Assembly (NCBI GenBank): GCA_036504215.1
Contig: DASXVO010000043.1
Span: 1-64,000, forward strand
Length of the DNA: 64,000 nucleotides
Reading direction: 5' to 3'
Source of the DNA: Vicinamibacterales bacterium
Lineage (GTDB): Bacteria > Acidobacteriota > Vicinamibacteria > Vicinamibacterales > Fen-181
Shown: piece after piece, positions 19,685 to 46,325 of the stretch
How the letters are laid out: each line of letters begins with the position of its first letter
Numbering within the stretch: position 1 is the stretch's first letter
Notes under the pieces: generated by a model
Databases searched by the model: none
What the model saw: the letters and a program-made list of their open reading frames with translations, nothing else
What the model was told of the DNA's origin: nothing
Translations under genes and position numbers: made by a program

Positions 19685-22426
19685 GTGATTGTGCCAACCA
19701 TCATCGCGATTGTGGTCGGTGGCGTGATCGGCGCGGTCTGGGGCGGGAGTTTTGGCGCAGTCGCCGGCGCGGCCCTGGCGTGGCTGTTGATGAGATCGTT
19801 CCGGCTCGAGAAGCAACTCGCCAGCCTGCGGCAGGCGCTCGATGCTGCCGAGAAACGGTGGTCGATCAGCCAACGTGTTCCTGTCGCCCCGCCGCCGATC
19901 GCGACATCGGCTGTCACTTCTGTCCCACCGCCGGTCACAGTCACGCCGCGGTCGACTCCGCCAGAGCCACCGACCGATACATCTCCCGTCGTGCGGCCGG
20001 TTCCGCCGTCGGCACCGCGCCGTGTAGAGGCGCCCGCACGTCTTTTCCCGGACGCGGCAGGTGCCGAGGACTCGGACGAACTGTCGCGCCTCATGGGCTG
20101 GCTGCTGGGCGGCAACACCATCGTCAAGGTCGGCATCGGCATCCTGTTCATCGGTCTCGCCTTCCTGGCCAAGTACGCCTCCGAACACGTTCAGGTCCCG
20201 GTGGAAGTGCGGCTGAGCTCCATTGGGGGCGCCGCGCTGGTCCTGTTGGCCATCGGGTGGCGGCTGCGAGAGCGACGGCCCGGATATGCCCAGACACTCC
20301 AGGGCGGCGCTGTGGCCGTTCTGTACCTGACGCTGTTCGTGGCGTTCCGTTTCTACGGCGTGCTGGCGGTCGGGCCTGTCTTCGGTTTGATGGTGATGGT
20401 GGCGGTTCTCGCCGCCGCGCTGGCCGTGCTGCAGGACGCCCCCTCGCTTGCGGTGATCGGCGCGCTCGGCGGTTTCGCGACTCCCCTGCTGGTCTCAACC
20501 GGCACCGGCAACTATGTCGCGCTGTTCAGCTACTACCTGGTGCTCGACCTCGGCATCGCCGCCGTGGCCTGGTACAGAACGTGGCGAGCCCTCAACCTGA
20601 TTGGCTTCCTGTTCACGTTCCTCGTGGGCACGGCATGGGGCGTCCTGCAGTACCAGCAGTCCCACTACCAGGCCAGCCAGACATTCCTCGCGACTTTCTT
20701 CCTGGTGTTCGTTGCGATCACGCTGATGCCGGCGCGCCAGCAACCTGCCGCGGTTCCGGCCGGGCGTGCTGACGGGTGGGTCAACGGCACGTTGCTCTTC
20801 GGCGTTCCCACCGTCACGTTTGCGCTGCAATACGGTCTCGTGCGGAACACCGCCTCTGGTGTGGCGTTGTCAGCATTGGCCCTGGCGGCTTTCTACGTGC
20901 TGCTGGCGGCGTGGATGCGCGCGCGTCCGCATCTGGCGGTGGTGTTCGAGGGCAGCCTCGCAATCGGCACGGTGTTCCTCACGCTCACGATTCCGTTTGC
21001 GCTCGACGCGCGGAGCACGGCCGGGGCCTGGGCCCTCGAGGGCGCAGGACTCGTATGGCTGGGGTTCCGGCAGACGCGCCCGCTCGGGCGAGTGTTCGGG
21101 TACGGGCTGCTGCTGCTTGCCGGCGGTGTGCTGCTGGTCACGGCTGCAGTCGGCGCGGCCCCAACTCGAATGCTCGATGCGACGCTGCTGAACGCCCTGC
21201 TCGTGGCTGCGTCGTCGATCGCGGGCGCATGGTTCGTGCAGAGGTCCGCTGATCGGACCACGACGTCCTCATGGTTCGACGCGGACGTCGAACGAGCGGC
21301 CGAGCCGGTGCTGATTGGGTGGGCCACGCTGTGGCTCGCCTTTGCCGCCTACGTCGAGATCGGAACCTTCGTGAAGCCGGAGTTCCAGCTGGCCGCCTCG
21401 CTCGCATGTCTGAGCGCGGTGGCACTCGTATACGCCGGCCTGTCGGTATGGCTGCAGTGGAGACTGATCGCGACGCCAGTCATTGGCCACGCGCCGCTGC
21501 TCGTGCTGGGCGTCGTGGCCAGCGCCTTCCTGAAGGCGAGTCCAATCGAGGCGGGCGGATGGTGGGCATGGCCCCTTGCACTGGCGACTCATCTCGTCGT
21601 GCTCGGTCGCGCCGCGCCGCAGTGGTCCGCGGGCACGCGAGAATCCGTGCACCTGCTGGGCGTCGTGGTGCTGGCCGCGCTCGGCGCGCTGCAGGGTCGT
21701 TCGATCACGTCGGATTGGGGCGAGTCCACCAGCGCATGGGCCTGGCTCGGCTGGCTCGCCTTTCCTGCTGGCCTCTTGCTCGTGCTGCCGCGCCCGGCGA
21801 CTGCGCGGGTGTGGCCGGTGAGCGCGGCGCCGCGAGCCTACCAGACCGACGCGGCTGGTGCCTTGACGTTCGGCCTGTTGCTCTGGGCATTCGTCGCCAA
21901 CGCGGCGTCCAACGGGTCGGCTGCGCCGCTGCCGCACGTGCCCCTGCTGAACCCGCTCGACCTGGGCGTGGGCGTCGCGCTGTTCGCGGCGTGGCGCTGG
22001 AGGGAGAGCGACGCGGCGCGCATCGCGTCCGCGTGGGTACCCAGGCTGGCCTTCGCGTGCATGGCCGGCGACGGGTTCATCTGGCTGAACGCGATCCTGA
22101 TCCGCGCGTTCCACCACTATCGCGGCGTGCCGTTCCACGTGGATGCGTGGATGGCGTCGCTGGCTGTGCAGACGGGTATTTCGCTGCTGTGGACGGTCAC
22201 CGCGCTCGTGTTGATGTGGCTCGCGGCCCGGTATGTCCTCCGCGCGCCATGGATGGCGGGTGCCGCGCTATTGGGCGCAGTCGTGCTGAAGCTGCTGATC
22301 GTGGATCTGTCCGGCTCGGGCACGGTGACCCGCATCGTGTCGTTCATCGGCGTCGGCGTATTGATGCTCGTCATCGGGTACGTGGCCCCGCTGCCCGGGA
22401 AGGGGGAGCGCCATGAGGTTTTGTAG
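19685..22426 (+). CDS. DUF2339 polytopic membrane protein
   Basis: This protein of about 913 residues has an N-terminal helix, a proline-rich linker (residues about 65-120) and the DUF2339 start NTIVKVGIGILFIGLAFLAKYASE. More than twenty hydrophobic helices follow up to the C-terminus. Family function is unknown; a role in envelope or polymer biology has been suggested by context only. A GTG at 19685 or 19691 serves as start, and the weak RBS does not decide between them. Its end overlaps the DUF3999 gene by 14 bp. That pairing recurs across bacteria and argues for a DUF2339-DUF3999 complex in the inner membrane. Confidence 0.88.
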   Translation: MIVPTIIAIVVGGVIGAVWGGSFGAVAGAALAWLLMRSFRLEKQLASLRQALDAAEKRWSISQRVPVAPPPIATSAVTSVPPPVTVTPRSTPPEPPTDTSPVVRPVPPSAPRRVEAPARLFPDAAGAEDSDELSRLMGWLLGGNTIVKVGIGILFIGLAFLAKYASEHVQVPVEVRLSSIGGAALVLLAIGWRLRERRPGYAQTLQGGAVAVLYLTLFVAFRFYGVLAVGPVFGLMVMVAVLAAALAVLQDAPSLAVIGALGGFATPLLVSTGTGNYVALFSYYLVLDLGIAAVAWYRTWRALNLIGFLFTFLVGTAWGVLQYQQSHYQASQTFLATFFLVFVAITLMPARQQPAAVPAGRADGWVNGTLLFGVPTVTFALQYGLVRNTASGVALSALALAAFYVLLAAWMRARPHLAVVFEGSLAIGTVFLTLTIPFALDARSTAGAWALEGAGLVWLGFRQTRPLGRVFGYGLLLLAGGVLLVTAAVGAAPTRMLDATLLNALLVAASSIAGAWFVQRSADRTTTSSWFDADVERAAEPVLIGWATLWLAFAAYVEIGTFVKPEFQLAASLACLSAVALVYAGLSVWLQWRLIATPVIGHAPLLVLGVVASAFLKASPIEAGGWWAWPLALATHLVVLGRAAPQWSAGTRESVHLLGVVVLAALGALQGRSITSDWGESTSAWAWLGWLAFPAGLLLVLPRPATARVWPVSAAPRAYQTDAAGALTFGLLLWAFVANAASNGSAAPLPHVPLLNPLDLGVGVALFAAWRWRESDAARIASAWVPRLAFACMAGDGFIWLNAILIRAFHHYRGVPFHVDAWMASLAVQTGISLLWTVTALVLMWLAARYVLRAPWMAGAALLGAVVLKLLIVDLSGSGTVTRIVSFIGVGVLMLVIGYVAPLPGKGERHEVL

Positions 22427-23828
22427 CCTGACCTGGCCGATCGCCCTGGCGGTGGCTTGCGGCGCAGCCGTGCAAGGCGCGGAGGAGACGACGTTCCGCT
22501 ACCAGGCGCCGATAGTCGTGAGCCAGCCCGGGGCCTTCGTGCTGGTACCGTTGTCCGTCGAGGTCTACGCCCACAGCCAGCAGACCGGATTGAACGACCT
22601 GCGCGTCATCGACGCCCACGGCGAGCGGGTGCCGTTCGCTCTTCTCGACCCTCGCGGCAGCCAGGTCGAGATCACCGACCAGACTCGCGAGGCGACGATC
22701 TACCCGTTGCCCCCGAGGCCCGCTGCCGACGGAACCTGGGCGGCGCCAGTCGAACTCACCGTCGAGGGCGATCGCATCAACGTGAAGCGGCGACCCGGAG
22801 TGAGCACTGCCGGCACCGCTGGACAGCGCTCGGGCGGGTGGCTCGTGGACTTGGGCGAACGCAGGCCGTCGGACCCACCACCGCGGGCGCTGCGCTTCGA
22901 TTGGACTGGCCCGGCCGAGTTCACCGCAGCCTACCAGTTCGAGACGAGCGACGACCTCCGCCGCTGGCATCCGGGCGGTGCCGGCCAGTTGATGGCGCTG
23001 GTGTCGGCAGCGGGGACACTCTCGCAACAAAGCGTCGTGCTGCCGCTCGCCGCGGGCCGGTTCGTCAGGCTCGTGTGGGTCGATGACGCGACGCCACCGG
23101 CAATCGTCAGGGCACAGGTGCTGAGTCCGGAGCAGCGGACCATCGCGCTCGATCCACCGGCTGAACTCGTCTTCTCCCCCGGCGCGAAGCCGACCGGGAA
23201 GCCGGCGGCAGCGGATACCGACACGCACGCACTGTTCTTCGATCTCGGCGGCGCGCTGCCGATCGGGCAGGTGGAGTTGCGGTGGACCGGCGGCACGCAT
23301 GTCGCGCCTGTGCGCATCGAGGGTCGAACCCAGGTTGGCAACTCCTGGTCATCGCTCCTGGCGGGCGTCTTCTACCGGCTCGATAGAGACGGCGTCGTCA
23401 GCACATCCGGCCCGGTCACGGTCGGAGCCCTCGCACGCTACGTGCGGGTCTCCCCCGATCCGCGCGCCGGCGTCCTGGACCCGATGCGAACGCGGCTCGT
23501 CGTGAGGGCGCACCTCGCCAGCCTGGTGTTCGCGGCACAGGGCCAGGCGCCGTACACGCTGCTCGCGGGTTCGGCCACGGCCCCCGCAGGTCCGTTGCCT
23601 GTGGGCACTCTGGTGCCAGCCCTCGACGATGAGCGCGCACGATTCGGCCGAGCGGCGCTGGGCACGTGGATTGAGGTCGCTGCCGCCGCGCGGCAAGCCG
23701 GGGCGGAGCGCCGACAGGCGATCTTCAGGCTGGTGCTGCTGTGGAGCGTGCTCGTCGGCGGCGTGACCGGCCTGGCGTTCATGGTCTGGCGCCTCGCGCG
23801 CGGAACGACACCAGGGACACGCGGCTGA
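22413..23828 (+). CDS. DUF3999 exported, membrane-anchored protein
   Basis: The 471-residue protein begins with a signal peptide (MRFCSLTWPIALAVACGAAVQGAE). Beta-rich periplasmic modules follow, containing FRYQAPI and PLPPRPAADG. It ends with one C-terminal helix (LVLLWSVLVGGVTGLAFMVW) and a short cytoplasmic tail. This is the DUF3999 layout. The start codon overlaps the end of the DUF2339 gene, so translation is probably coupled. I infer that it is the periplasmic arm of a complex with the DUF2339 protein. No enzymatic motif is seen. Confidence 0.87.
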   Translation: MRFCSLTWPIALAVACGAAVQGAEETTFRYQAPIVVSQPGAFVLVPLSVEVYAHSQQTGLNDLRVIDAHGERVPFALLDPRGSQVEITDQTREATIYPLPPRPAADGTWAAPVELTVEGDRINVKRRPGVSTAGTAGQRSGGWLVDLGERRPSDPPPRALRFDWTGPAEFTAAYQFETSDDLRRWHPGGAGQLMALVSAAGTLSQQSVVLPLAAGRFVRLVWVDDATPPAIVRAQVLSPEQRTIALDPPAELVFSPGAKPTGKPAAADTDTHALFFDLGGALPIGQVELRWTGGTHVAPVRIEGRTQVGNSWSSLLAGVFYRLDRDGVVSTSGPVTVGALARYVRVSPDPRAGVLDPMRTRLVVRAHLASLVFAAQGQAPYTLLAGSATAPAGPLPVGTLVPALDDERARFGRAALGTWIEVAAAARQAGAERRQAIFRLVLLWSVLVGGVTGLAFMVWRLARGTTPGTRG

Positions 23829-24276: not shown

Positions 24277-24768
24277 ATGGGTTGCCGTTCGCAGGGAATC
24301 ACTGTGCCAGTTCGCCGTTTGTCCGTCGAACGCGTCGCGGTCTCGGTTCGCATGCAGGCACTCGCAACGGCCGCGGCGCTCGTCGTGGCCGTCACCGGTG
24401 GAAGCACGGCCGCCTGCGTCGCGACGCAGCCCGCCACTGATACGAGCACTCCGGTCTCACCCAGCGGTTCGTCATCTCCTCCGTCTGGTACGTCAGCTGG
24501 ACCGCTCGCCTACAACCCGGACATGGTACCGATCTTCGCGTCCGACTGTGTCCCGTGCCACACGGGCTCGCGGCCACTCGGCGGCTACTCGATGGCCAAC
24601 TACACGGCGGTCATGCGGGACGTGACGCCGGGCAGCGCCCGGTCGGTGCTCGTCACCAAGACGCAGTCGGGCGGAAGCATGTATCGCTACTTCAGCGTGG
24701 ACCGCGCGGGCCGCGCCGACATGGTGAGGCGCTGGGTTGTGGACGACCAGGCCGCGGCGACGCGGTGA
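24277..24768 (+). CDS. Small monohaem c-type cytochrome-like exported protein
   Basis: The 163-residue protein has an internal hydrophobic export segment (LATAAALVVAVTGGSTAAC, possibly a lipobox Cys). A Ser/Pro/Thr-rich linker follows. A haem c motif CVPCH lies in NPDMVPIFASDCVPCHTGSRP. It ends with SGGSMYRYFSVDRAGRADMVRRWV, typical of short class I cytochrome domains in which a distal Met ligates the haem; here the Met of SGGSMYRY is the candidate. TTGGAG lies about 9 nt before the ATG at 24277. The N-terminus is long before the hydrophobic part, so the true start may be the ATG at about 24352. It leads the redox operon that follows. Confidence 0.7.
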   Translation: MGCRSQGITVPVRRLSVERVAVSVRMQALATAAALVVAVTGGSTAACVATQPATDTSTPVSPSGSSSPPSGTSAGPLAYNPDMVPIFASDCVPCHTGSRPLGGYSMANYTAVMRDVTPGSARSVLVTKTQSGGSMYRYFSVDRAGRADMVRRWVVDDQAAATR

Positions 24769-24782
24769 CCGGAGGTCTCAGG

Positions 24783-25331
24783 ATGAAACGACTGGTGGGT
24801 GGCCGCGCGATCGCGGCCATGACAATCACAATCGCTTTCCTCGCGTCGCCGGGTCGGGTCGCCGCCGCGGCGCCACAATCCGGGGCCCCAGGGCAGCCGG
24901 CGCCGGCTGTTCGCCTGTCCTCGGCAGACGGCTCGGTCCTTTCGCTGGCCGACCTGAAGGGGCGGGTCGTGCTCGTGGACTTCTGGGCGAGCTGGTGCGC
25001 CCCATGCCGCCGCTCGTTTCCCGCGCTCGATCGCCTCTACGTGAACCTCAAGTCACGCGGCTTCGAGGTGATTGCGGTGAACCTCGACGAGCGGCGACAG
25101 GACGCGGTCGACTTCCTCGTCGCGCGGCCTCACGAGACCACCGTCGTCTTCGATCCCGAGGGGGCAAGCGCGCGGGCGTTCGGTCTCGCCGGCATGCCGA
25201 CATCATTCCTGATCGATCGAGAAGGACGCATCCGGTTCGTACACGTCGGATACACGGACAAGGTGCTCGACGCCTACCGGCGCGAGATCGAGCAGTTGCT
25301 GACCGAACCGTCGGCGGAGGGGAACAGATGA
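24783..25331 (+). CDS. TlpA/ResA-like periplasmic thioredoxin
   Basis: The 182-residue protein has a signal peptide (MTITIAFLASPGRVAAAA) and a thioredoxin-fold domain with FWASWCAPCRRSFPALDRLY as the redox centre. It also has the cis-proline loop GLAGMPTSFLIDREG. TlpA/ResA proteins keep cysteines reduced outside the cytoplasm, for example for haem attachment to CxxCH proteins. Two neighbours carry CxxCH motifs, so such a role fits. GGAGG precedes the ATG. The stop overlaps the next start as ATGA, which indicates translational coupling. Confidence 0.92.
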   Translation: MKRLVGGRAIAAMTITIAFLASPGRVAAAAPQSGAPGQPAPAVRLSSADGSVLSLADLKGRVVLVDFWASWCAPCRRSFPALDRLYVNLKSRGFEVIAVNLDERRQDAVDFLVARPHETTVVFDPEGASARAFGLAGMPTSFLIDREGRIRFVHVGYTDKVLDAYRREIEQLLTEPSAEGNR

Positions 25332-25558
25332 CCGGGAAGCCGCGTGTTGGACTGCTCATCGCCGGAGCGCTGCTGCTTGCGGCGCTGACGGGCGGTTGCG
25401 CGACCGTCCAGCCATGGCAGCGCGGAAGACTCGCGGACCCCTGCATGGTGTTCGATTACGACGGGGGCCAGGCCGACTTTGCCAGCCACTGGCAGACCGC
25501 GCGCGAAGGCTCCGCCGGCGGATTTGGGGTCCAGGGAGGAGGCTGCGGGTGCAAGTAG
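25328..25558 (+). CDS. DUF4266 small lipoprotein with Cys-rich tail
   Basis: The 76-residue protein has a lipoprotein signal (LLLAALTGGC, lipobox LTGGC). The DUF4266 core is VQPWQRGRLADPCMVFD, and a C-terminal tail ends GGGCGCK. The family is uncharacterised but is regularly next to DUF3570 barrels and ApbE. The terminal Gly/Cys motif could bind metal, form disulfides with the TlpA partner, or be a modification site; this is inference. It overlaps the TlpA gene by 4 bp and the DUF3570 gene by 10 bp. Confidence 0.85.
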   Translation: MTGKPRVGLLIAGALLLAALTGGCATVQPWQRGRLADPCMVFDYDGGQADFASHWQTAREGSAGGFGVQGGGCGCK

Positions 25559-26622
25559 GCTGGTCCTCGAGGGCGGCGGCCGTCGTAGCCGGTGGCCTGG
25601 CGGCGAGCGTGGTCCTCGCGTCGGCGGCGATCCGCGCCGAGAGCGTGCTCAACCTGCAGTTCCACACGTTCCAGGACAGCCGCGGGGTGACCGTGCTCGA
25701 GCCGATTGTCGATCTCGACAAGGACTTCACCGATCGCTCGGGTCTCAAGGTGAAGTTCGGGGTCGACGCGATCACGGCGGCGTCCGACTCCTGCGCCCGG
25801 TGCCACCCGGACGGCCACAGCAGCGGCAGGACGTTCGTCAACTTCGACTACCGGCGCAAGTTCGGCGCGTTCAAGGTGGATGTGGGTGGCGAGATCAGCC
25901 GGGAGAACTTCTACGCGGCCGACACCGCCCTGGTGTCGGTTTCGCGCGATCTGAACAAGGGCAATACGACGATCGCCGGTGGCTATTCCTTCTCGTTGAA
26001 CCGGCCGCAACTGCATCCGACGCAGACCGTCGAGAACCAGTACGCCCATGACCTGTTCGCATCTCTCACCCAGACGCTGACACGGGGAACGATCGTACAG
26101 CTCGCCTATGACTACAACCGGATCAGCGGGTTCCAGAGCAACCCCTTCCTGCGGACGAGCGTGGACAACCTGATGGTCGTCGGCAACGCCCCAGACCTCC
26201 GGACCCGCCAGGCGATCGTGGTGCGGTTGCGGCAGGCGTTGCCGGCGGCGACGTACCTCGAGACCGACTACCGGCGGTACACCGACAGTTGGTCGGTGCA
26301 CTCGAACACGGTCTCAGTCGGACTCGAACACTACTTCAGACCGACGCTGCTCGTCGGCTTCACCTACCGGTGGTACGACCAGACGGCAGCCTTCTTCTAC
26401 CAGCCCTTCTACCTCGGCAGCCCTGAGTTCTACACCGGAGACTTCCGGCTGGCGCCGTTCAACGCGGGTACCTACAGCGGGCACGTGCTCTACACCCCGG
26501 CGAACCGGCTGTTCGATCTCCTGCCCGACAAGACCGCGCTGGACCTGCGGTACGACCGGTACCTCGCGAGCACAGGGTTCCAGGCAGCCATGTTCTCGTT
26601 CGGCCTGCGCGTGCCGTTCTGA
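25549..26622 (+). CDS. DUF3570 outer-membrane beta-barrel with a CxxCH motif
   Basis: The protein is 357 residues with a GTG start at 25549, chosen because GGGAGGAGG lies just upstream; an ATG start would lose the signal peptide (AAVVAGGLAASVVLASAAIRAES). Alternating strands such as TYLETDYRRYTDSW, and a terminal aromatic GLRVPF, indicate an outer-membrane barrel of the DUF3570 family. Early in the barrel, ASDSCARCHPDGHSSGRT contains CARCH, a possible covalent haem c site. That is unusual for a barrel and matches the cytochrome and thioredoxin encoded just upstream. Translation overlaps the DUF4266 gene. Confidence 0.85.
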   Translation: MQVGWSSRAAAVVAGGLAASVVLASAAIRAESVLNLQFHTFQDSRGVTVLEPIVDLDKDFTDRSGLKVKFGVDAITAASDSCARCHPDGHSSGRTFVNFDYRRKFGAFKVDVGGEISRENFYAADTALVSVSRDLNKGNTTIAGGYSFSLNRPQLHPTQTVENQYAHDLFASLTQTLTRGTIVQLAYDYNRISGFQSNPFLRTSVDNLMVVGNAPDLRTRQAIVVRLRQALPAATYLETDYRRYTDSWSVHSNTVSVGLEHYFRPTLLVGFTYRWYDQTAAFFYQPFYLGSPEFYTGDFRLAPFNAGTYSGHVLYTPANRLFDLLPDKTALDLRYDRYLASTGFQAAMFSFGLRVPF

Positions 26623-26629
26623 GGGGGAA

Positions 26630-27697
26630 GTGGAGTCGGACCCTGTGTCGAAGCTGCAGCACGTGAAGCATCGCCTGGCCGTTGTCCTGGTCCTGTTGTG
26701 CCTGGGCGGGTTCGTTGGCCTCTCCGCTCAGCCCGCCTGGCAGGGCAGCGACATCTCGCGCGACTTCCGGTACCTGATGGGCACGTCGGTCGAAGTCCGT
26801 GTCTTCGGCGGCGACGCCTCGTCGCGCCAATCCGCCGCCGCCGAGGCGTTCGGAGCGATGGCCGAGGTCGATCGGCTGATGAGCAACTGGCGCGCCGACA
26901 GCGAGATCACCGCCGCCAACCGCGACGCGCGCGACTTCGCGGTGCGGTTGAGCGATCCGCTCTTCACCGTCATCCAGGCAGGTCAGATGGTGGCCGATCG
27001 GAGCGGCGGCGCCTTCGACATGACCGTCGGGCCGCTGATGAAACTATGGGGCTTCCGGCCGCGAAACCCGCACCTGCCAACGGCCGAGGAACTCGCGCCG
27101 GTTCGCGGGCTGGTGAACTTCCGGAATGTCCAACTCGACGAGGCGTCGCACACGATGCGCTTCGTGAGGCCCGACGTCGAGGTCGATCTTGGCGGGATTG
27201 CCAAGGGATTTGCCGTCGAAGTCGCGGCTGGCGCCCTGCGCCGGCGCGGCCTGGGAGGCTTCATCGACGCGGGGGGCAACCAGTACATGCTCGGCAAGCC
27301 GCCCGGCAAGCCGGCGTGGACGGTTGGGATCCGTGACCCGGACCACGCCGACGGCCTGCTCGGCACGCTCGTCCTGCCCGAGGGTTCCGTCTCGACGTCC
27401 GCACAATACGCGAACTTCCTGACCATCGCGGGCCGGCGCTACGGCCACATCCTCGACCCGAGGACGATGATGCCAAGCGATGCGTCGCTGGCGGTGACCC
27501 TCTACTCTCCAGATGGGACGCTCGCGGACGCGGTGTCGAAGGCGGCGTTCAACCTCGGCCCGTCGCGGGGCGTCGCCCTGATTGAGTCGTTCCCCCAGAT
27601 GCTCGGCGCGATCGCGTACCGTCGGTCCGACGGGGCGGTTGGCCTGGCGATGACCAGCCGGACCAGGGCGGTGTTCCACCCGGTTGCCCCACGGTAG
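26630..27697 (+). CDS. apbE: FAD:protein FMN transferase (ApbE family)
   Basis: The protein is about 350 residues with a signal peptide (LAVVLVLLCLGGFVGLSAQ). It has ApbE landmarks in order: YLMGTSVEVRVFG, AMAEVDRLMSNWRADSEI, GGAFDMTVGPLMKLWGF, VDLGGIAKGFAVE, GGFIDAGGNQYMLG, SVSTSAQYANF and the metal-binding GHILDPRTMMPSD. ApbE uses FAD and Mg2+ to attach FMN to Thr/Ser of exported proteins. None of the operon neighbours shows a canonical D-x-x-G-A-[ST] acceptor, so its target is unknown. A GTG at 26645 with GGAG about 9 nt upstream is an alternative, perhaps better, start. It is the last gene of the redox operon. Confidence 0.92.
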   Translation: MESDPVSKLQHVKHRLAVVLVLLCLGGFVGLSAQPAWQGSDISRDFRYLMGTSVEVRVFGGDASSRQSAAAEAFGAMAEVDRLMSNWRADSEITAANRDARDFAVRLSDPLFTVIQAGQMVADRSGGAFDMTVGPLMKLWGFRPRNPHLPTAEELAPVRGLVNFRNVQLDEASHTMRFVRPDVEVDLGGIAKGFAVEVAAGALRRRGLGGFIDAGGNQYMLGKPPGKPAWTVGIRDPDHADGLLGTLVLPEGSVSTSAQYANFLTIAGRRYGHILDPRTMMPSDASLAVTLYSPDGTLADAVSKAAFNLGPSRGVALIESFPQMLGAIAYRRSDGAVGLAMTSRTRAVFHPVAPR

Positions 27698-27725: not shown

Positions 27726-28445
27726 TCACTTCGTGTTGAAGACGAACGTCATCCGCTGGCCCTTCCGCAGGACGGTCACCTTCGCCTGAGGCATGTTCTG
27801 GATCTGTCCGAGGATCCGCATGACAGTCGCCATGCCGTCCAGCGGTTGGCCATTCACCTCCAGGACGACATCGCCGTCTCGGAGTCCCATCTGTTCGACC
27901 GCACCGCCTTGCCTGACCTGGCCGATTTCGTACCCGTCGATCGATCGACGCCCGTTCGCTGTTTCTCGATAGCGGGGCACCGCCACCGCCGAAGCCAGGA
28001 GATCGGGGAGATTCGCCAGGTAGAGATCGACCGAGGCTTTCGGAAGCTCGATGGCTACGATGTCCGACGCTGCGGCAGGCGCAGGGACGGCAGGTGGTGG
28101 TGGCAGCGCGCCAGTCGAAGGCTTCGCCGGCGAGAAGGTCAGGACTTCCACACGCTTCGTCAGGAGATTGGTGATGATGACGCCGTCGTCGCGAATCTCC
28201 TGGATTGCCGCGAGATCGCAGACGTTCTGTCCGGCGAAGAACATCCCTCGCCTCTCCACGGGCCCAGTGCAGAGGATGAGGCACGCGGACTTGGACGGTG
28301 TCTCCTTGTCCACCATCAAACCGGTCAGATGGAGCGGGAGTGCCGAGGGAGGATTGGCCTGTCGAGGTGGCTCTGAGAGGCCGGCCATCAGCAGCCCGAC
28401 CGTCCACACGACGAGAACCCCCCCGAGGCCCGTCGTCATGCTCAT
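27726..28445 (-). CDS. GspC-like type II secretion protein with PDZ domain
   Basis: The 239-residue protein has one N-terminal membrane helix (GGVLVVWTVGLLMAGL). It then has a homology-region-like beta domain (LTGLMVDKETPSKSACL, FAGQNVCDLAAIQEIRDDGVIITN). A Pro/Ala linker follows, and a C-terminal PDZ domain (GYEIGQVRQGGAVEQMGLRDGDVVLEVNGQPL). This is the layout of GspC, the inner-membrane link between the type II secretion platform and the secretin. No other gsp gene is in the window, so it may be an orphan or serve a locus elsewhere. Its ATG at 28445 is 33 nt after the stop of the membrane-protein gene upstream. Confidence 0.8.
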   Translation of the reverse strand: MSMTTGLGGVLVVWTVGLLMAGLSEPPRQANPPSALPLHLTGLMVDKETPSKSACLILCTGPVERRGMFFAGQNVCDLAAIQEIRDDGVIITNLLTKRVEVLTFSPAKPSTGALPPPPAVPAPAAASDIVAIELPKASVDLYLANLPDLLASAVAVPRYRETANGRRSIDGYEIGQVRQGGAVEQMGLRDGDVVLEVNGQPLDGMATVMRILGQIQNMPQAKVTVLRKGQRMTFVFNTK

Positions 28446-28478: not shown

Positions 28479-30152
28479 CTACTGCGCCGGCACGATCCGA
28501 TAAACGCCGTAGCTGTCGTCGACGAAGACCGGCGCCAACCCGGCGCACACGGTCTGGCTGACGCGCCGGTCGAGAACGACGTGCGAGATCCGGTAGTGCG
28601 CGGTGATGAACTCGAGCGCGGTACAGTCGTTCTGGCCCGCGTAGAACCGTTGGGCAAGATGCAATCGGCGATCCCACTCGATCACCTCGACATCTTTGTA
28701 CGGGTGCGACTTGTAGTCGACGAAGGCCGGAGCGCCTCCATACGTTCGGAATCGTTGGAGATCTGGCGGAATCAGGTAGAGGTCGCCCTTCGCCCTCGTC
28801 CGTTCGACATATCTCAGGACGGGAACGCTGTCGGGCCTGAGTTCCTGGACGAAGTCCGCGTAGATCGGCGCCGGTGCCACCCAGCGCACGACTCGTTCGA
28901 GCGGACCGTAGTCGTAGTGCAGGGCGAACTCGGAGGTCATGCGAACGATTCCAGTCGTGACGCCAAGAAAGACGTTGACGACTGCCACCGCCACGACCAC
29001 CTTGCGTGCGGCACCGCGATCGAGTGACCAGCGTTCGAACAACCAACCGACGCCGCGCGAGGCGATGATGGCCGTCGAAACAGGAACCACGAGCACCGAG
29101 GTCCGCCACGGGAAGATCAGCCCGAGTGTCTGGTTCCCGGTGAGCACCTGAACGGCGGTGAGCAGCACACCAACTGCCGTGGGAACGGCCAGAACCACCA
29201 GCAGCGCCGTGCGGCGAGCGAGAATCATCGCCACGATGACCAAGCCGAGCTGCGCGACGCATGTCGCGCCAAGCCAGCGGCTCGGAACGGCCTCGAACGG
29301 CAGATGGTCCGAGAGGATTCGAAACGCCTGCACGGACGCCTCGGGCGATGTGGGGCCGAAGTTGCGCAGGGTGTACCACAGCATCGGCGTCACGATGGCT
29401 GCCGCCAGAACCGACATGATCACGGCGCGCCGCCATTGCCGCGATTGCCAGGCTGTCAGGGCGACAAAAGCGGCCACCAGCGATCCCGATGTCAGAGCGT
29501 AGCTGAAGTGCACGTCGGCGACGACGGCTGCGAGCACGGCCGCGGCGATGGGCCGGCCCCGAATGAACAGCAGTACCGCGAGCGGCAACAGCATACCGAA
29601 CGAGCTGGCCTGGAATGCTCCGTGACCGAAGATCTCCTGCCCGGCAACACCCCAGTGGGTCATCTGCCACCAGCCGATGTGTGCCTTGTCGAAGAGGACG
29701 AGATAGGCGAAGACCTCGTTGTGCAGCAACGTCAAGAGCGAGAACACTACGACCTGCTCGGTTCGCGAACGGCCGTCGCGCATGCCGGTGGCGCCCACGC
29801 GCAGCACGGCCAGGATGTACGCACCGAACAGGAGGTAGTAGCAGAGGTAGAAGAGGTTGTCCGAGAGATACCGGTGCGTGAAGGCGACGACCGCGCTGAA
29901 GACCGGGAAGGGATCGGCGGTCGTCACCTGCCAGTCGTCGCTCAGGAATCCGACACCAGCGTCGGCGAGCCCCTTGAGAAAGTGATGATTCTGGTTCGAG
30001 CTGTAGAGGGGGCGCATCGTGTAGGCGGTGCCGAAGATCGCCGACACCACCAGAAACCACGCCACGGTTCGGACGTGCCGCCGAAACGCGGAACCGCCGG
30101 ACGCGGGCTCACCGGAGTGCAGGAGAGGCGACGCGGGTGGGTTCATTCCCAT
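28479..30152 (-). CDS. Polytopic membrane protein, DUF6798-like
   Basis: The 557-residue protein has about ten transmembrane helices. An N-terminal motif YSSNQNHHFLKGLADAGVGFLSDDW is typical of a group of bacterial integral membrane proteins that resemble glycosyltransferase-C-type scaffolds. A soluble C-terminal part of about 110 residues follows (DLYLIPPDLQRFRTYGGAPAFVDYKSHPY). The family assignment to DUF6798 is from memory of the motif and is tentative. A role in lipid-linked sugar or envelope metabolism is possible but unproven. The stop of the upstream secreted-protein gene is 18 nt before this start, so they form an operon with the GspC-like gene. Confidence 0.7.
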   Translation of the reverse strand: MGMNPPASPLLHSGEPASGGSAFRRHVRTVAWFLVVSAIFGTAYTMRPLYSSNQNHHFLKGLADAGVGFLSDDWQVTTADPFPVFSAVVAFTHRYLSDNLFYLCYYLLFGAYILAVLRVGATGMRDGRSRTEQVVVFSLLTLLHNEVFAYLVLFDKAHIGWWQMTHWGVAGQEIFGHGAFQASSFGMLLPLAVLLFIRGRPIAAAVLAAVVADVHFSYALTSGSLVAAFVALTAWQSRQWRRAVIMSVLAAAIVTPMLWYTLRNFGPTSPEASVQAFRILSDHLPFEAVPSRWLGATCVAQLGLVIVAMILARRTALLVVLAVPTAVGVLLTAVQVLTGNQTLGLIFPWRTSVLVVPVSTAIIASRGVGWLFERWSLDRGAARKVVVAVAVVNVFLGVTTGIVRMTSEFALHYDYGPLERVVRWVAPAPIYADFVQELRPDSVPVLRYVERTRAKGDLYLIPPDLQRFRTYGGAPAFVDYKSHPYKDVEVIEWDRRLHLAQRFYAGQNDCTALEFITAHYRISHVVLDRRVSQTVCAGLAPVFVDDSYGVYRIVPAQ

Positions 30153-31436: not shown

Positions 31437-34400
31437 ATGAGCTCGTCGATTGCGGACCTGTCATTCGTCTGGCCAGCGTCACGTCTCGGCGGCGTCGCGG
31501 GCCTCGCTGCGGCCTCCGGTTGCGGCACGATTCTCGACTGCCGGACCGACGACCTCCACGCGCTCGCGCCGGCCCTACGGGGCGCCGGCATCTCCGATGT
31601 GCTCCTGGATCTGCGCCAGTGGACCGCTTCCGCGGCCGCATCCACCCTGCACGACGCGGGCGTCCGGAACGCGTGGGTCGACTGCGGCCCGTTGACGAGT
31701 GCCGACGATCGCAGCCGTGTGGCCGCGCAATTCACCGACTCCGGGAGCGACGTGGCTGTCGTGCCGGTTGTCTGCGATCTCGCCCTGCTCGATTGTCTGT
31801 TCGCCGAGCGAGCCTGGCCCGTTCTGGCGCTGAAAGGAAATGAGGCGTCCGGATTCGTCAGCGGCGAGGCGGCTCACGTCCTGCTCGCGATCGCCGGGCG
31901 CGCGCGGCGGATCAACCAGCGCGACACGCGTCTGGTGATTTGGGGCGGCCTCGCCACCCCGGACGCAACGGCGGCCTTTCTCTCCACAGGGGCCCAGGGC
32001 GTCGTGTTCGAGAGCGTCCACTGGCTGACCGATGCCATGGAACTCGAGCCGCGGCTCCAACACTCACTGAGGAGCCTTCGCGCCGACTCCACGCGCGTCG
32101 TCGGTGCGAACGTCGGACTCCATTGCCGGCTCTTCGACAAAGGGAACTCCCGGGCCGTGCGTGCCCTGGTCCAGTCGATCGAGGGCGGCGCAGACGCGGC
32201 GCCGAACGACGCTCGGACCGCGCTGATCCAGCGGATCACCAGCGCCTCGATCTCTCCGCTCGTCTCGACGCTCGGAGCCGACGAACTCGTCCCGCTGGGC
32301 CCCGAGGCCGCGTTCGCAGGAGCGTTCGTGGAACGCTTCGGAAGTGCCGCGGGCGATGCCCTCACGCGGTTCCGCGATCAGGTGATGGCGCTCTGTTCGA
32401 CGGCCAGCGGGCGAATCATCGCCCTGTCGGACGGTCCCGTCACCCGCGAGTGGGGCACGACGTATCCGATCGTCCAGGGCGCGATGTCGTGGATCACGGA
32501 CCAGCCGGATTTCGCGCGACAGCTGGCCGACGCGGGCGCGCTGCCCACGATCGCGTTGGGGATGCGTTCGCGAAGCGACCTCGAACGCGACTTTGCGCAG
32601 TTGGCGGCGACGCTGGGCGATCGGCCCTATGCGGTGAACCTGATCGTCCTTCCCGAGAATCCCGTCCGCGACGAGCAGTTCGCCTGGATCGAGGCCACGC
32701 GTCCGCCGTTTGTCGTCATCGCCGCCGGCGACCCGTCGTTCGCGAGGCGGCTCGGAGAGAAGGGACTGAAGGTCCTGTACGTGGCGTCGGACGAAGGCCT
32801 CCTGCGCGTCGCGCTCGAGGCGGGTGTTCGGTACGTGATCCTCGAAGGCAACGAGGCGGGCGGCCACGTCGGCCCGCAGTCACTGACCACCGTCGCCCAG
32901 ACGATGCACGAGTTGAAGCGCCGCCAGCCGGCGCTGTTCGATGGCGCGCGACTGGTGATGGCCGGGGGCATCTTCGACGGCCCGAGCGCGCACCGCGCGA
33001 TCCTGCTCGGAGCCGACGCGCTGCAACTCGGCACGGCCTACCTGGCGACGGAAGAGATCGTTGCCACTGGGGCGTTGTCGTACCTGTATCAGCAGCAGGT
33101 GTGCGAGGCGCGGCCGGGCGACACGATGGTGCTGGGCGAGCCGCTGGGCCTGCGCATCAGGTCGCTGCGCTCCCCGAAGACCGAGCGCCTTGCGCACCTC
33201 GAACGCCACATGGGCGAGTCGGCGGCCGACGAGCGCGAGTTGCGCCGCGGCGTCGAAGCCGAGGCGACCGGCACGCTTCTGATCGCCGCACGGGGCGTCC
33301 GCTCGCCCGGTGGGCAGAAACTCGACGAACAGGTGTGCCGCGACGAAGGCCAGTTCATGAGCGGGGCCGCCGCCGGCTGCATCGACGAGGTTCGGAGCCT
33401 CGCCGCCCTGCACCGCGACATCATGGCCGCCCCACCGGAGAACCGCCAGGCGCTGGCGGCGCCTCCAGTTGCTCACGTTGGCCGGGACCGCAGCGTCGCG
33501 ACCGCGCCACGGCGTGGCGAACGAATCGCTATTACCGCCATGGCGATGGCCAACTCGCTCGGCAACAGCCTCGACGACATCTGGGCCGGCGTCGTCGAGG
33601 GCCGCAGCGGCGTGTCCTCGATCCCGACCTGCAAGTGGGATCACGGATCGATCTACGACCCGCGTCCGGGCACGCCAGGCAAGACCTACAGCAATGTCGC
33701 GGCGTTTCTCGACTTGAACATCGACCGAAAGGACATCGGCATCCCGCCGCAGGATTTCCGGACGATGGCGAAGTCCACGCGGCTGACGCTGTGGCTCGCC
33801 CGCCAGGTGGTGACGCGGGCGGCGCTGCTCGAGTCTGGCATCCCGCCGGAGCGGATCGGCGTGATGATTGCCCAGAACTCGGGCGAGGCCGCCAGCACGC
33901 TTGCGGATCTCACGATCACCATGTCCGCCCCGCTGCTGGCGCGAACGGTGGCGGAGACGCTGGGCCTGACGGCAGAGCAGACGGCGGAGGTGGAGAGGCG
34001 GCTGTGCGCCGACCGTCTGTCGGTTGACGACACGACGCTGCTTGGCCGCCTCAACTGCACGGCGGGTGGCTTCGTCTGCAACCAGTACGGCTTCATGGGG
34101 CCGAGCTACGCGGTCACGGCGGCGTGCTCGACGAGCCTCGTGGCGCTCTACAACGCCGTGCACCTGATCCGCGCGGGCGCCATCGACGCCGCGCTGGTTG
34201 GCGGTGGGGAGGAGTGGCTCCTCCCGGCGCACTTCATCGAGTTCGCGGCCGTCGGCGCGCTGGCCGGCATCTCCGGGCGGGAGCGGCCCATCTCGAAGGC
34301 CAGCCGGCCGTTCGATCTCGAGCGCGACGGGATGGTCCTCGGCGAGGGCGGCGTGATGATCGTGGTGGAGCGCGAGTCCGTGGCGCGCCGCCGCGGGGCA

Positions 34401-37400
34401 CGGATCCACGCATTCGTCACTGGAGTGGGCGCCAGCAACAACAACCACGGCATGGTGGAATCGTCGGCGGCCACCCAGCAGATCGCGATCCGCAACGCCT
34501 ACGCCGACGCGGCCTACGCTCCCGACACCGTCGACCTCGTCGAGTGTCACGCCACCAGCACGGCACAAGGCGACGTGGAGGAGGTCCGCGCGCTCAAGTC
34601 GTTCTTCCCGTCCGGCCGACGGACGGCGCTGGCGTCGTTCAAGTCACAGATTGGCCATACCCTTGGCGCGTCCGGCTTGACCAGCCTGGTCCGCGGCGTG
34701 CTCGCGATGGAGCGGCGCACACTGCCGCCGTCGTTGAACTACGAGACGCCCGACCCGGCGATCGATCTCGAGGGCTGGGGGTTCGACGTGTCGGGCGAGG
34801 CGCGGGCCTGGCCCGAGTCGACGGATCGTCCGCGCCGATTCGAGGTGAACGCCTTCGGGTTCGGCGGCAGCAACTACGTCACCTTGCTCGAGGAGAGCGC
34901 GGAGGACCGCGGAGTCGTGTTCGTGTCGGGGCACGACGACGAGGGACAGGCGCTGCTGCCGGCGGACGTGAGTCGTCACGACCTTTGCGGCGTCCTCCTC
35001 GTCAACGCCGAGTCCCCGGACATCACACTGCGGGCCGCGATCGCGGATCCGGATCCAGCGGCGCGCGAACAGGCGCTCTCACGGCTGCGGCGTCCGGTCG
35101 AGCCTGCGCCTCCAGAGAGGCTGTTCGTCATCGCGCGCCAGGGGCTGTACGCGGCGGACGCGGCGGCGGCGCACGCGCCCCTCGCGTTCATCTACCCCGG
35201 TCAGGGTTGTCAGTACGTCGGCATGGGCCGCGAACTGGCCTCGACATTCCCCGTCGTCCGCGAGGCACTCGAGCGAATGGCGGCCGTGGCCGACTTCGAC
35301 CTGCTCGACCTGCTCTACAACGCCGGCGACGAGATGCTCCGCAACACGCGGTGGCAGCAGCCCGCGCTCTTCGCGCTCCAATTCGCCTTGACGGAGTTCT
35401 TCCGCTCGTGCGGCGTCGAGCCGGCGGCCGTGGCTGGCCACAGCCTCGGCGAGACCACGGCTCTGGCGATGGGAGGGGCCATTTCCTGGGAGGATGGCTT
35501 CCGCCTGGTCAACAAGCGCGGCGAGTGCATGGAGAGGCTCTCGAATTCGGGCATCGACGGCGGGAGCATGATCGCCACCGACGTACCGCTGGCGAAGCTC
35601 CAGGAGAAGCTGGCCGCCCGGCGAAGCGTTGTCGTCAGCAACGACAACTCCCCGCGGCAGATCGTGCTCGGAGGCGACACGGACGAGATCGCCGACCTTC
35701 AGCAGGAACTCGAGCGCGAGGGGTCATGGGTCCGGCGGCTGCGTGTGAGCATGGCGTTCCACACGCCCCGGTCAAGGGTGCTCGTCGACGAGATCGAGCC
35801 GTTCCTGAACACCCTCGAGATTCGGCCGCCCCGCCTGCCCGTGCTCGTCAACTCCACGAACGGGGTGTATCCGGACGACCCCGCGCAGATCCGCGCCATC
35901 ATCAGCGCACATCTGGTCTCCGGCGTCCGGTGGCGCGAGAACGTCGAGCGCCTGGGCAGCGAGTTCGGCATTCGGGTGTTCCTCGAACTCGGTCCCAAGG
36001 ACGTGCTGTCGAACCTGGTGGGCGACACGCTGCCGCACGCGCTCACGATTCCGACCGCCCTTCCCAACGCCGAAGTCGCGACGTGCCGATCCGCGCTGGC
36101 GCGCGTGGCGGCCCTCGGGCACGTTCGGTCGGCGGTGACACCGCTCCGCCTCGTGGTCCGGCACGATGCGGCACCGGCCGCGGGAACGGCTGGCGACGGC
36201 GAGAGGGAACGCGGTGGTGGCGACGGGAGAGGGCGGAGTGGTGGCGACGGGAAAGGGCGCGGTGGTGGCGACGGAAGAGGGCAGAGTGGCGGCGACGGGA
36301 GAGGGCAGAGTGGCGCGGGCGTCCCGCCCGCGGTGTCGGCACGAACTGGCGGCTCGCACGCTGCTGAGGATCGGCCCATCGTTCCTCCCGAGTCGCCGTT
36401 TGTCGAGGATGTGATCGGCCTCATCATGGAGGCCACCGGTTACGAACGGCACGAGATCTCGCCGGACATGGATATCCGGCAGGACCTGTCGATCAGGTCC
36501 AGCCGGCTTCCGGTCATCATGGATGCCGCCGAGCGCAGGTTCGGTATCAGGATTCGCCTCGAAGAACTCATCGAGGTCCGCACGGTCGGCGACCTGGCCG
36601 CCAGTCTCCAGAAGATGGTGGATCGGGGCGGCGAACCGGGAGCGGCCCCGTCAGAGCCGCTGGTGATTGACCCGCTGCGCGGCAAGCAGGGACGGCCGAC
36701 CGATGAGGACGCGGCGTTCCCGCCGCGGCTGCCGCTTCGACGGTATGTCTGGGCAGACACACCGCTGACACTCGCGACGCCTTCGCCGGTCACGCTGGCG
36801 AAGGGCGCCCGCGTCGTGATTCTCAGCTGGAACGCCCCGTCGGCGCTGGCGCCGCAGATCGGCGCGTGGTTCTCCAAGCGGTACCGCGCGCAGACCGACG
36901 AGGTGGTGCTGGCATCCGGCTCGCTCCTCTCCCTCTCGCCCGAAGATGTCGAAGCCGAGGTCGCCCGCAGGATCCCGGCTCTTGGATCCGCCGCGGGGCT
37001 CGTGGTCCTGCTCGACGGGCTGGCCACGCTTGCGGCCGACGGTTCGGACGTCGCACCAGTTCTCACCGCGACCTTCGCGGCGCTCAAGGCACTGCTCCGC
37101 TCGGCCGACCGGGAGTTCTGCATCGTGATCGACGGGGGCCAGTTGGGCGCGGGCGCGGCCGCCAGTGAGGGCACGCTCGGTGTCCTGTTGTCCGCCGCCC
37201 ACGAATACTCGTCGGCCGTGTTCCGGCACGCGACCGTCGAACCAACGGCAGACATTCCCGCTGTCCTCGAACGGTGTCTGGACACGAGCCTTCCGCTCGT
37301 TCAGCTCCGATTTCGACGCGATGAGGTGCTGACACAGGAGGCTCGGCCGGAGCCGCTGCACGCTGGCTCGGCGGAACGATTCCCAATCCGCCGTGGTGAC

Positions 37401-46229: not shown

Positions 46230-46325
46230 GGAAGCGAACGGGGCCCGGTGGCCCTCCCGGTCTTCAAAACCGGTCGCTCCCCGCTTTGCGGGGGGGCTGG
46301 GTTCGACTCCCAGGCGCTTCCGCCA
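46230..46325 (+). tRNA. selC: tRNA-Sec (anticodon UCA)
   Basis: The 96-nt gene folds as a selenocysteine tRNA. The acceptor GGAAGCG pairs with CGCTTCC. The long D-arm and the anticodon stem CCGGT/ACCGG enclose CTTCAAA with anticodon TCA at 46264-46266. The extra arm is long (GCTCCCCGCTTTGCGGGGGGGC), and the T-arm contains GGTTCGACTCC. The CCA is encoded. It implies that the organism reads some UGA codons as selenocysteine. selA, selB and selD are not in the window. Confidence 0.95.

Follow-up and report, generated by a model that had tools for sequence, protein, structure and literature searches.

Gene organization of the DUF3570 operon

We analysed a 64,000-nucleotide stretch of DNA from a Vicinamibacterales bacterium (assembly GCA_036504215.1, contig DASXVO010000043.1, positions 1 to 64,000; hereafter the window), which carries five same-strand genes forming one operon at 24277 to 27697 (+), among them a gene for a DUF3570 outer-membrane barrel with a c-type haem motif. 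The first gene (24277 to 24768) encodes a monohaem c-type cytochrome lipoprotein with the motif CVPCH and matched no Pfam family at E 0.01; its start is uncertain, being either the ATG at 24277 or the one at 24353, and the codon of the predicted lipid-anchor Cys lies near 24415. The second (24783 to 25331) encodes an exported TlpA/ResA-like thioredoxin with the motif WCAPC (Pfam Redoxin, E 4.1e-27; AhpC-TSA, E 3.3e-23), and the third (25328 to 25558) a DUF4266 lipoprotein with a C-terminal CxC in the sequence GCGCK (PF14086, E 1.5e-17). The fourth gene (25549 to 26622) encodes the DUF3570 barrel (PF12094, E 1.1e-38), here a haem-site variant, and the fifth (26630 to 27697) an ApbE FAD:protein FMN transferase (PF02424, E 1.9e-72). 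The first two genes are separated by 14 nt, the second and third overlap as ATGA, the third and fourth overlap by 10 nt, and 7 nt lie between the last two. The cytochrome and the barrel hold the only two CxxCH motifs of the whole operon.

A preliminary description of this DNA, made from the sequence alone, had listed five overlapping or nearly touching genes with a CVPCH, a WCAPC, a Cys-tailed lipoprotein and a CARCH inside the barrel, and all five open reading frames and each of these motifs are indeed present. It had also put the system forward as its leading candidate for an undescribed one, and taken DUF4266 and DUF3570 to be uncharacterised families that recur with ApbE and TlpA. The recurrence holds, but the rest does not: clusters in which ApbE and DUF3570 occur with DUF4266 and a thioredoxin-like protein (PF13899), matching four of the five genes here, were reported by Meheust et al. 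in 2021 (eLife; PMC8238504), so that the window system belongs to a described module. That report counts 227 DUF3570 clusters with DsbD and 316 without it, the latter being treated as the same system, and shows by co-expression that the cognate ApbE flavinylates the DUF3570 protein of Chlorobium luteolum, using two [S/T]GA[S/T] motifs as sites. Since the window barrel carries one such acceptor motif and not two, we class its operon as a variant of the module.

A CxxCH motif at the place of the second flavinylation motif

Within the window's class, 18 of 193 genomes encode DUF3570 (17 of them above the family cut-off), and in its phylum, the Acidobacteriota, 34 of the 396 genomes sampled do. 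Its barrels split cleanly into a haem type, with CxxCH, found at 14 loci in 14 of the 193 class genomes (the window, L032 to L034, L037 and L039 to L047), and a flavin type, found at 27 loci (L035, L036, L038 and L073 to L096), of which 26 had barrels intact enough for alignment; 40 barrels were thus compared. The residue numbers D73, S79, C82, C85, H86, H39 and H156 refer to the window barrel.

The motif recognized by ApbE is Dxx[ST]GA[ST], whose ends are the D and the S/T (PMC12052999). The flavin-type barrels carry, in the loop that follows strand 3, Dxx[ST][GS][AS]S, a spacer and a second motif (TSAS, SSAS, SGAS or similar), which mostly fits [ST]xA[ST] and is unmatched in L074, L075, L077 and L080. 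The corresponding loop of the CxxCH clade reads DA[IV][ST][AG][AS]S-D-S-C-x-R-C-H-x-x-G. In the window the first motif is retained as D73-A-I-T-A-A-S79 (25765 to 25785, +) and is followed, in the loop that holds the second motif of flavin-type barrels, by C82-A-R-C85-H86 (25792 to 25806, +). D73 and S79 are invariant in 40/40 barrels, whereas C82, R84, C85, H86, H39 and H156 are found in 14/14 haem-type and 0/26 flavin-type barrels. The conservation of CARCH in homologues, which the preliminary description had named as a check, is thereby established: the CxxCH is invariant across the haem type down to about 50% identity and missing from all 26 flavin-type barrels. Moreover, all haem-type barrels contain just two Cys residues, both within CxxCH, while flavin-type barrels have none or one. 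We read this pattern of residues as an exchange, in this clade, of the second flavin site for a c-type haem site.

The CxxCH barrels make up one side of a branch with 100/100 support, and a profile built from them recovered no additional CxxCH barrel from either the class or the phylum sample. Searches of other collections gave one DUF3570 match from Hymenobacter among plasmids, at 25% identity, whose flavin or haem type was not examined, and zero matches among phages; the one scan of genome contigs yielded nothing beyond a same-genus relative.

Co-occurring cytochrome and redox genes

The genes conserved around the haem-type barrels are the five operon genes only. The cytochrome gene is present in 14/14 haem-type loci as opposed to 0/27 flavin-type loci, and ApbE in 12/12 haem-type loci where the contig continues, so the five genes also occur together outside the window genome, another point that the preliminary description had put forward for checking. 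The pairing of DUF3570 with ApbE itself extends to all 27 flavin-type loci and every uncut haem-type locus.

Across the 14 aligned cytochromes, the lipobox Cys, the CxxCH and a candidate distal Met (in GSMY) are invariant. Their family kinship is weak (PccH in 13/14, PSCyt1 in 11/14), and the structure model of the cytochrome is poor, with a predicted local distance difference test (pLDDT) value of 51.6. The NCBIfam model NF047812, made for the Leptospira lipoprotein LIC11213, matches 14/14 of them, the window copy far below its cut-off. LIC11211 of Leptospira, with a locus number close to LIC11213, was reported as a predicted barrel without domain (PMC5406399). From these two proteins a haem-type module in Leptospira appears possible, the annotation of the locus being conflicting in the literature. 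At L034 (5885 to 7021) a single in-frame stop separates the CxxCH half of the cytochrome gene from the distal-Met half, reflecting either an assembly error or a pseudogene.

Genes of the CcmF/CcmC family, belonging to cytochrome c maturation (Ccm), were detected in 14/14 haem-type genomes, as the preliminary description had suggested looking for; in the window genome, CcmC follows an ABC-transporter frame (CcmA-like) and a CcmB-like frame, both read by eye. DsbD is encoded in 13/14 of these genomes, elsewhere than in the cluster. The thioredoxin of the window has ResA, TlpA and DsbE as its nearest NCBIfam models, all under their cut-offs, and the CxC tail of DUF4266 is kept in all 14 haem-type relatives. 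In many flavin-type loci, such as L074 and L094, TlpA and DUF4266 are fused as one open reading frame ending in GCGCN, and this fusion suggests that TlpA hands electrons over to the CxC tail.

ApbE and its probable acceptor

When aligned to Listeria FmnB, the functions of whose catalytic residues have been described (PMC8906456), the window ApbE has S257, H273, D300, K192 and N217 at the positions of Ser257, His273, Asp301, Lys190 and Asn216. The Mg-proximal Thr305 of FmnB corresponds to K304.

In the preliminary description, FMN had been assigned to an as yet unknown partner. DUF3570 being an experimentally shown ApbE substrate (PMC8238504), the barrel, in which the window retains DAITAAS, is the likely FMN carrier, and attachment to S79 is the simplest, though not a secure, reading of the motif. 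We also considered a partner encoded elsewhere in the window genome and rejected it: a second ApbE exists there, but the genome encodes no FMN_bind and no DUF2271 protein. No hidden barrels turned up near the distant ApbE loci, which are L111, L112 and two loci of G040.

Predicted structure of the barrel

The AlphaFold2 model of the barrel, computed from a 40-row alignment, has 16 strands and a mean pLDDT of 91.2; the CxxCH loop (residues 77 to 90) is less confident, with about 67 to 78 in its blocks. Foldseek returned generic porin matches only from the PDB, and a sequence search there for solved structures of the barrel family returned none. The model places the CxxCH loop after strand 3 and H156 (26014 to 26016, +) in the loop after strand 7, while H39 (25663 to 25665, +) lies near the outer end of strand 1 at a position of polar, lumen-facing parity and thus probably faces the lumen. 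Either His is a possible sixth (distal) ligand of the haem. Because both barrel ends are taken as periplasmic and turns after odd strands as extracellular, the CxxCH loop is predicted to lie outside the cell.

A probable haem variant of the flavinylation module

On balance, we consider it probable, by a modest degree, that the operon is a haem variant of the ApbE/DUF3570 flavinylation module whose barrel would carry one FMN and one haem. The haem c site is supported by the conservation of CxxCH, the cytochrome gained along with it and the Ccm genes. A more specific picture, in which a single barrel bears FMN as a phosphoester on S79 and haem c on C82 and C85, three residues apart at its extracellular end, as a natural two-cofactor conduit, we put forward tentatively, giving it somewhat less credence than the general reading. 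The haem-for-flavin variant is apparently undescribed, although the module itself is known.

Such a barrel would have originated from a two-flavin barrel by conversion of one flavinylation site into a haem site and recruitment of a partner cytochrome. The usual form is a 16-strand outer-membrane barrel with two FMN groups on the two motifs of one loop; among the CxxCH barrels the serine of the first acceptor motif is kept, while the second site would have become the c-type haem site C82-x-x-C85-H86, and the monohaem cytochrome lipoprotein would have been acquired alongside it. In the periplasm, the Ccm system would probably load haem, and ApbE FMN, onto the barrel. DsbD would reduce TlpA, and TlpA with the DUF4266 CxC tail, the cytochrome lipoprotein, or both, could exchange electrons with the barrel cofactors, which would carry them over the outer membrane. 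Electron exchange across this membrane is the probable function, with an extracellular partner as donor or acceptor that is possibly iron, by analogy with Cyc2 and with the VIT1 neighbours of published clusters (PMC8238504). The exported redox module with a haem-bearing barrel proposed in the preliminary description is supported by these results, and electrons, which it suggested could move from the periplasm to the surface, may pass either to or from the outside.

Several observations weigh against a barrel holding both cofactors. The Gly of the retained [ST]GA[ST] motif is Ala in most members of the clade, a substitution that in one enzyme reportedly reduced flavinylation to about 50% (PMC12052999), and three members have Ser in place of the Ala that follows. 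Of 11 ApbE proteins of the clade, 8 carry Lys instead of the Mg-proximal Thr, and the cluster ApbEs of L037 (6176 to 7312) and L044 are without the catalytic motifs (LWGF, TSG, HILD; the His/Ser region) while the barrel and its CxxCH are intact; both genomes contain other ApbE and FMN_bind genes. Furthermore, if the CxxCH loop is extracellular, a haem-loaded loop must cross the outer membrane during assembly. Because some of the ApbEs are degenerate, haem c might have fully replaced FMN on the barrel, leaving ApbE as a relict or in the service of another protein, in agreement with the loss of the second motif and, for most members, a first motif relaxed to [ST]A[AS]S. We regard this as unlikely, since S79 and D73 have stayed invariant although a neighbouring position changed, ApbE is retained at every uncut locus with the catalytic Asp, Ser and His kept in the window copy, and the window genome is without another known acceptor class.

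The CxxCH could instead serve as a redox-active dithiol or bind Zn or Fe, and trade electrons with TlpA and with the CxC tail of DUF4266. Both thiol-redox proteins belong to the same operon, fused in some flavin-type loci, and MtrB-type barrels carry CxxC. However, TlpA and DUF4266 do not explain the barrel CxxC because they are equally present in flavin-type loci that are devoid of it, the His after CxxC is invariant in 14/14 barrels, and the exchange coincides with the gain of a c-type cytochrome; this explanation seems to us quite improbable, more so than a barrel with haem only. The possibility that an ordinary flavinylated barrel carries the CxxCH by chance, or as a neutral feature, was rejected as extremely unlikely, given that any CxxCH arose in just 3 of 20,000 shuffles of the mature window barrel, that the motif is invariant clade-wide at about 50% identity, and that further clade-specific residues changed together with it.

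The haem variant of the module, as favoured here, matters because a cofactor would have been exchanged, apparently at one site inside one family, in which related flavin- and haem-type barrels can be compared; the role of DUF3570 and the importance of its cofactor thereby become directly testable. L037 and L044, with a degenerate ApbE beside an intact barrel, provide a natural test of a continuing need for FMN.

Other genes in the window

Directly upstream of the operon, a gene for a DUF2339 membrane protein (19685 to 22426, +) overlaps one for a DUF3999 protein (22413 to 23828, +), a pair not conserved beside other haem-type barrels. Downstream, two convergent genes encode a PDZ-domain protein (27726 to 28445, -) and a DUF6798 membrane protein (28479 to 30152, -). 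They are followed at 31437 to 39227 (+) by a gene for a 2596-aa multidomain synthase with nitronate-monooxygenase-like, ketosynthase, acyltransferase, acyl carrier, ketoreductase and dehydratase domains, which resembles polyunsaturated-fatty-acid or polyketide synthase enzymes. Both ARAGORN and Rfam (RF01852, 66 bits) identified a selenocysteine tRNA gene at 46230 to 46325 (+), and selenoproteins are therefore expected in the window genome.

Comparison with known systems

The window operon shares with the published ApbE/DUF3570/DUF4266/thioredoxin module (PMC8238504) four of its five genes, at many loci in the same order, as well as the barrel family (PF12094, with PF02424 adjacent), the CxC tail of DUF4266 and the first of the two flavinylation motifs. 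The thioredoxin agrees as well, the window protein having the fold with WCAPC, but its matches are to Redoxin and AhpC-TSA, with PF13899 not among them. Unlike the published clusters, the window barrel has one relaxed motif, with CxxCH where the second would follow, the operon adds the cytochrome c lipoprotein gene, DsbD lies on another contig of the genome, and ApbE shows clade-specific active-site changes. It has been proposed that flavinylated and haem-based envelope electron carriers can replace one another as whole domains or whole proteins (PMC8238504); the passages of that report drawn on here treat such exchange between whole domains, not within DUF3570, and make no mention of a haem-type DUF3570.

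The MtrAB, PioAB and Pcc conduits likewise combine an outer-membrane barrel with c-type cytochrome to move electrons across the membrane, but in those systems large barrels, of 26 strands in MtrAB, surround multihaem cytochromes, whereas the window has a 16-strand model and one monohaem cytochrome. In outline the window barrel resembles the fused cytochrome-porin Cyc2, a protein with a single c-haem motif and a predicted 16-strand outer-membrane barrel for which one-protein electron transfer at the cell surface has been proposed (PMC8406198). In Cyc2, however, the haem motif belongs to an N-terminal cytochrome domain with AxPxFAR[QK][TY] and PxL, while the window CxxCH follows strand 3 and has a flavinylation motif and ApbE adjacent. 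Membership in the Cyc2 family was rejected, AxPxFAR[QK][TY] being absent upstream of CxxCH in 14/14 haem-type barrels, and we regard the two as similar solutions from different families. If our interpretation is correct, the haem-type DUF3570 barrel would show a second route, besides Cyc2, by which a small outer-membrane barrel can be equipped with one haem, here located on the outer side.

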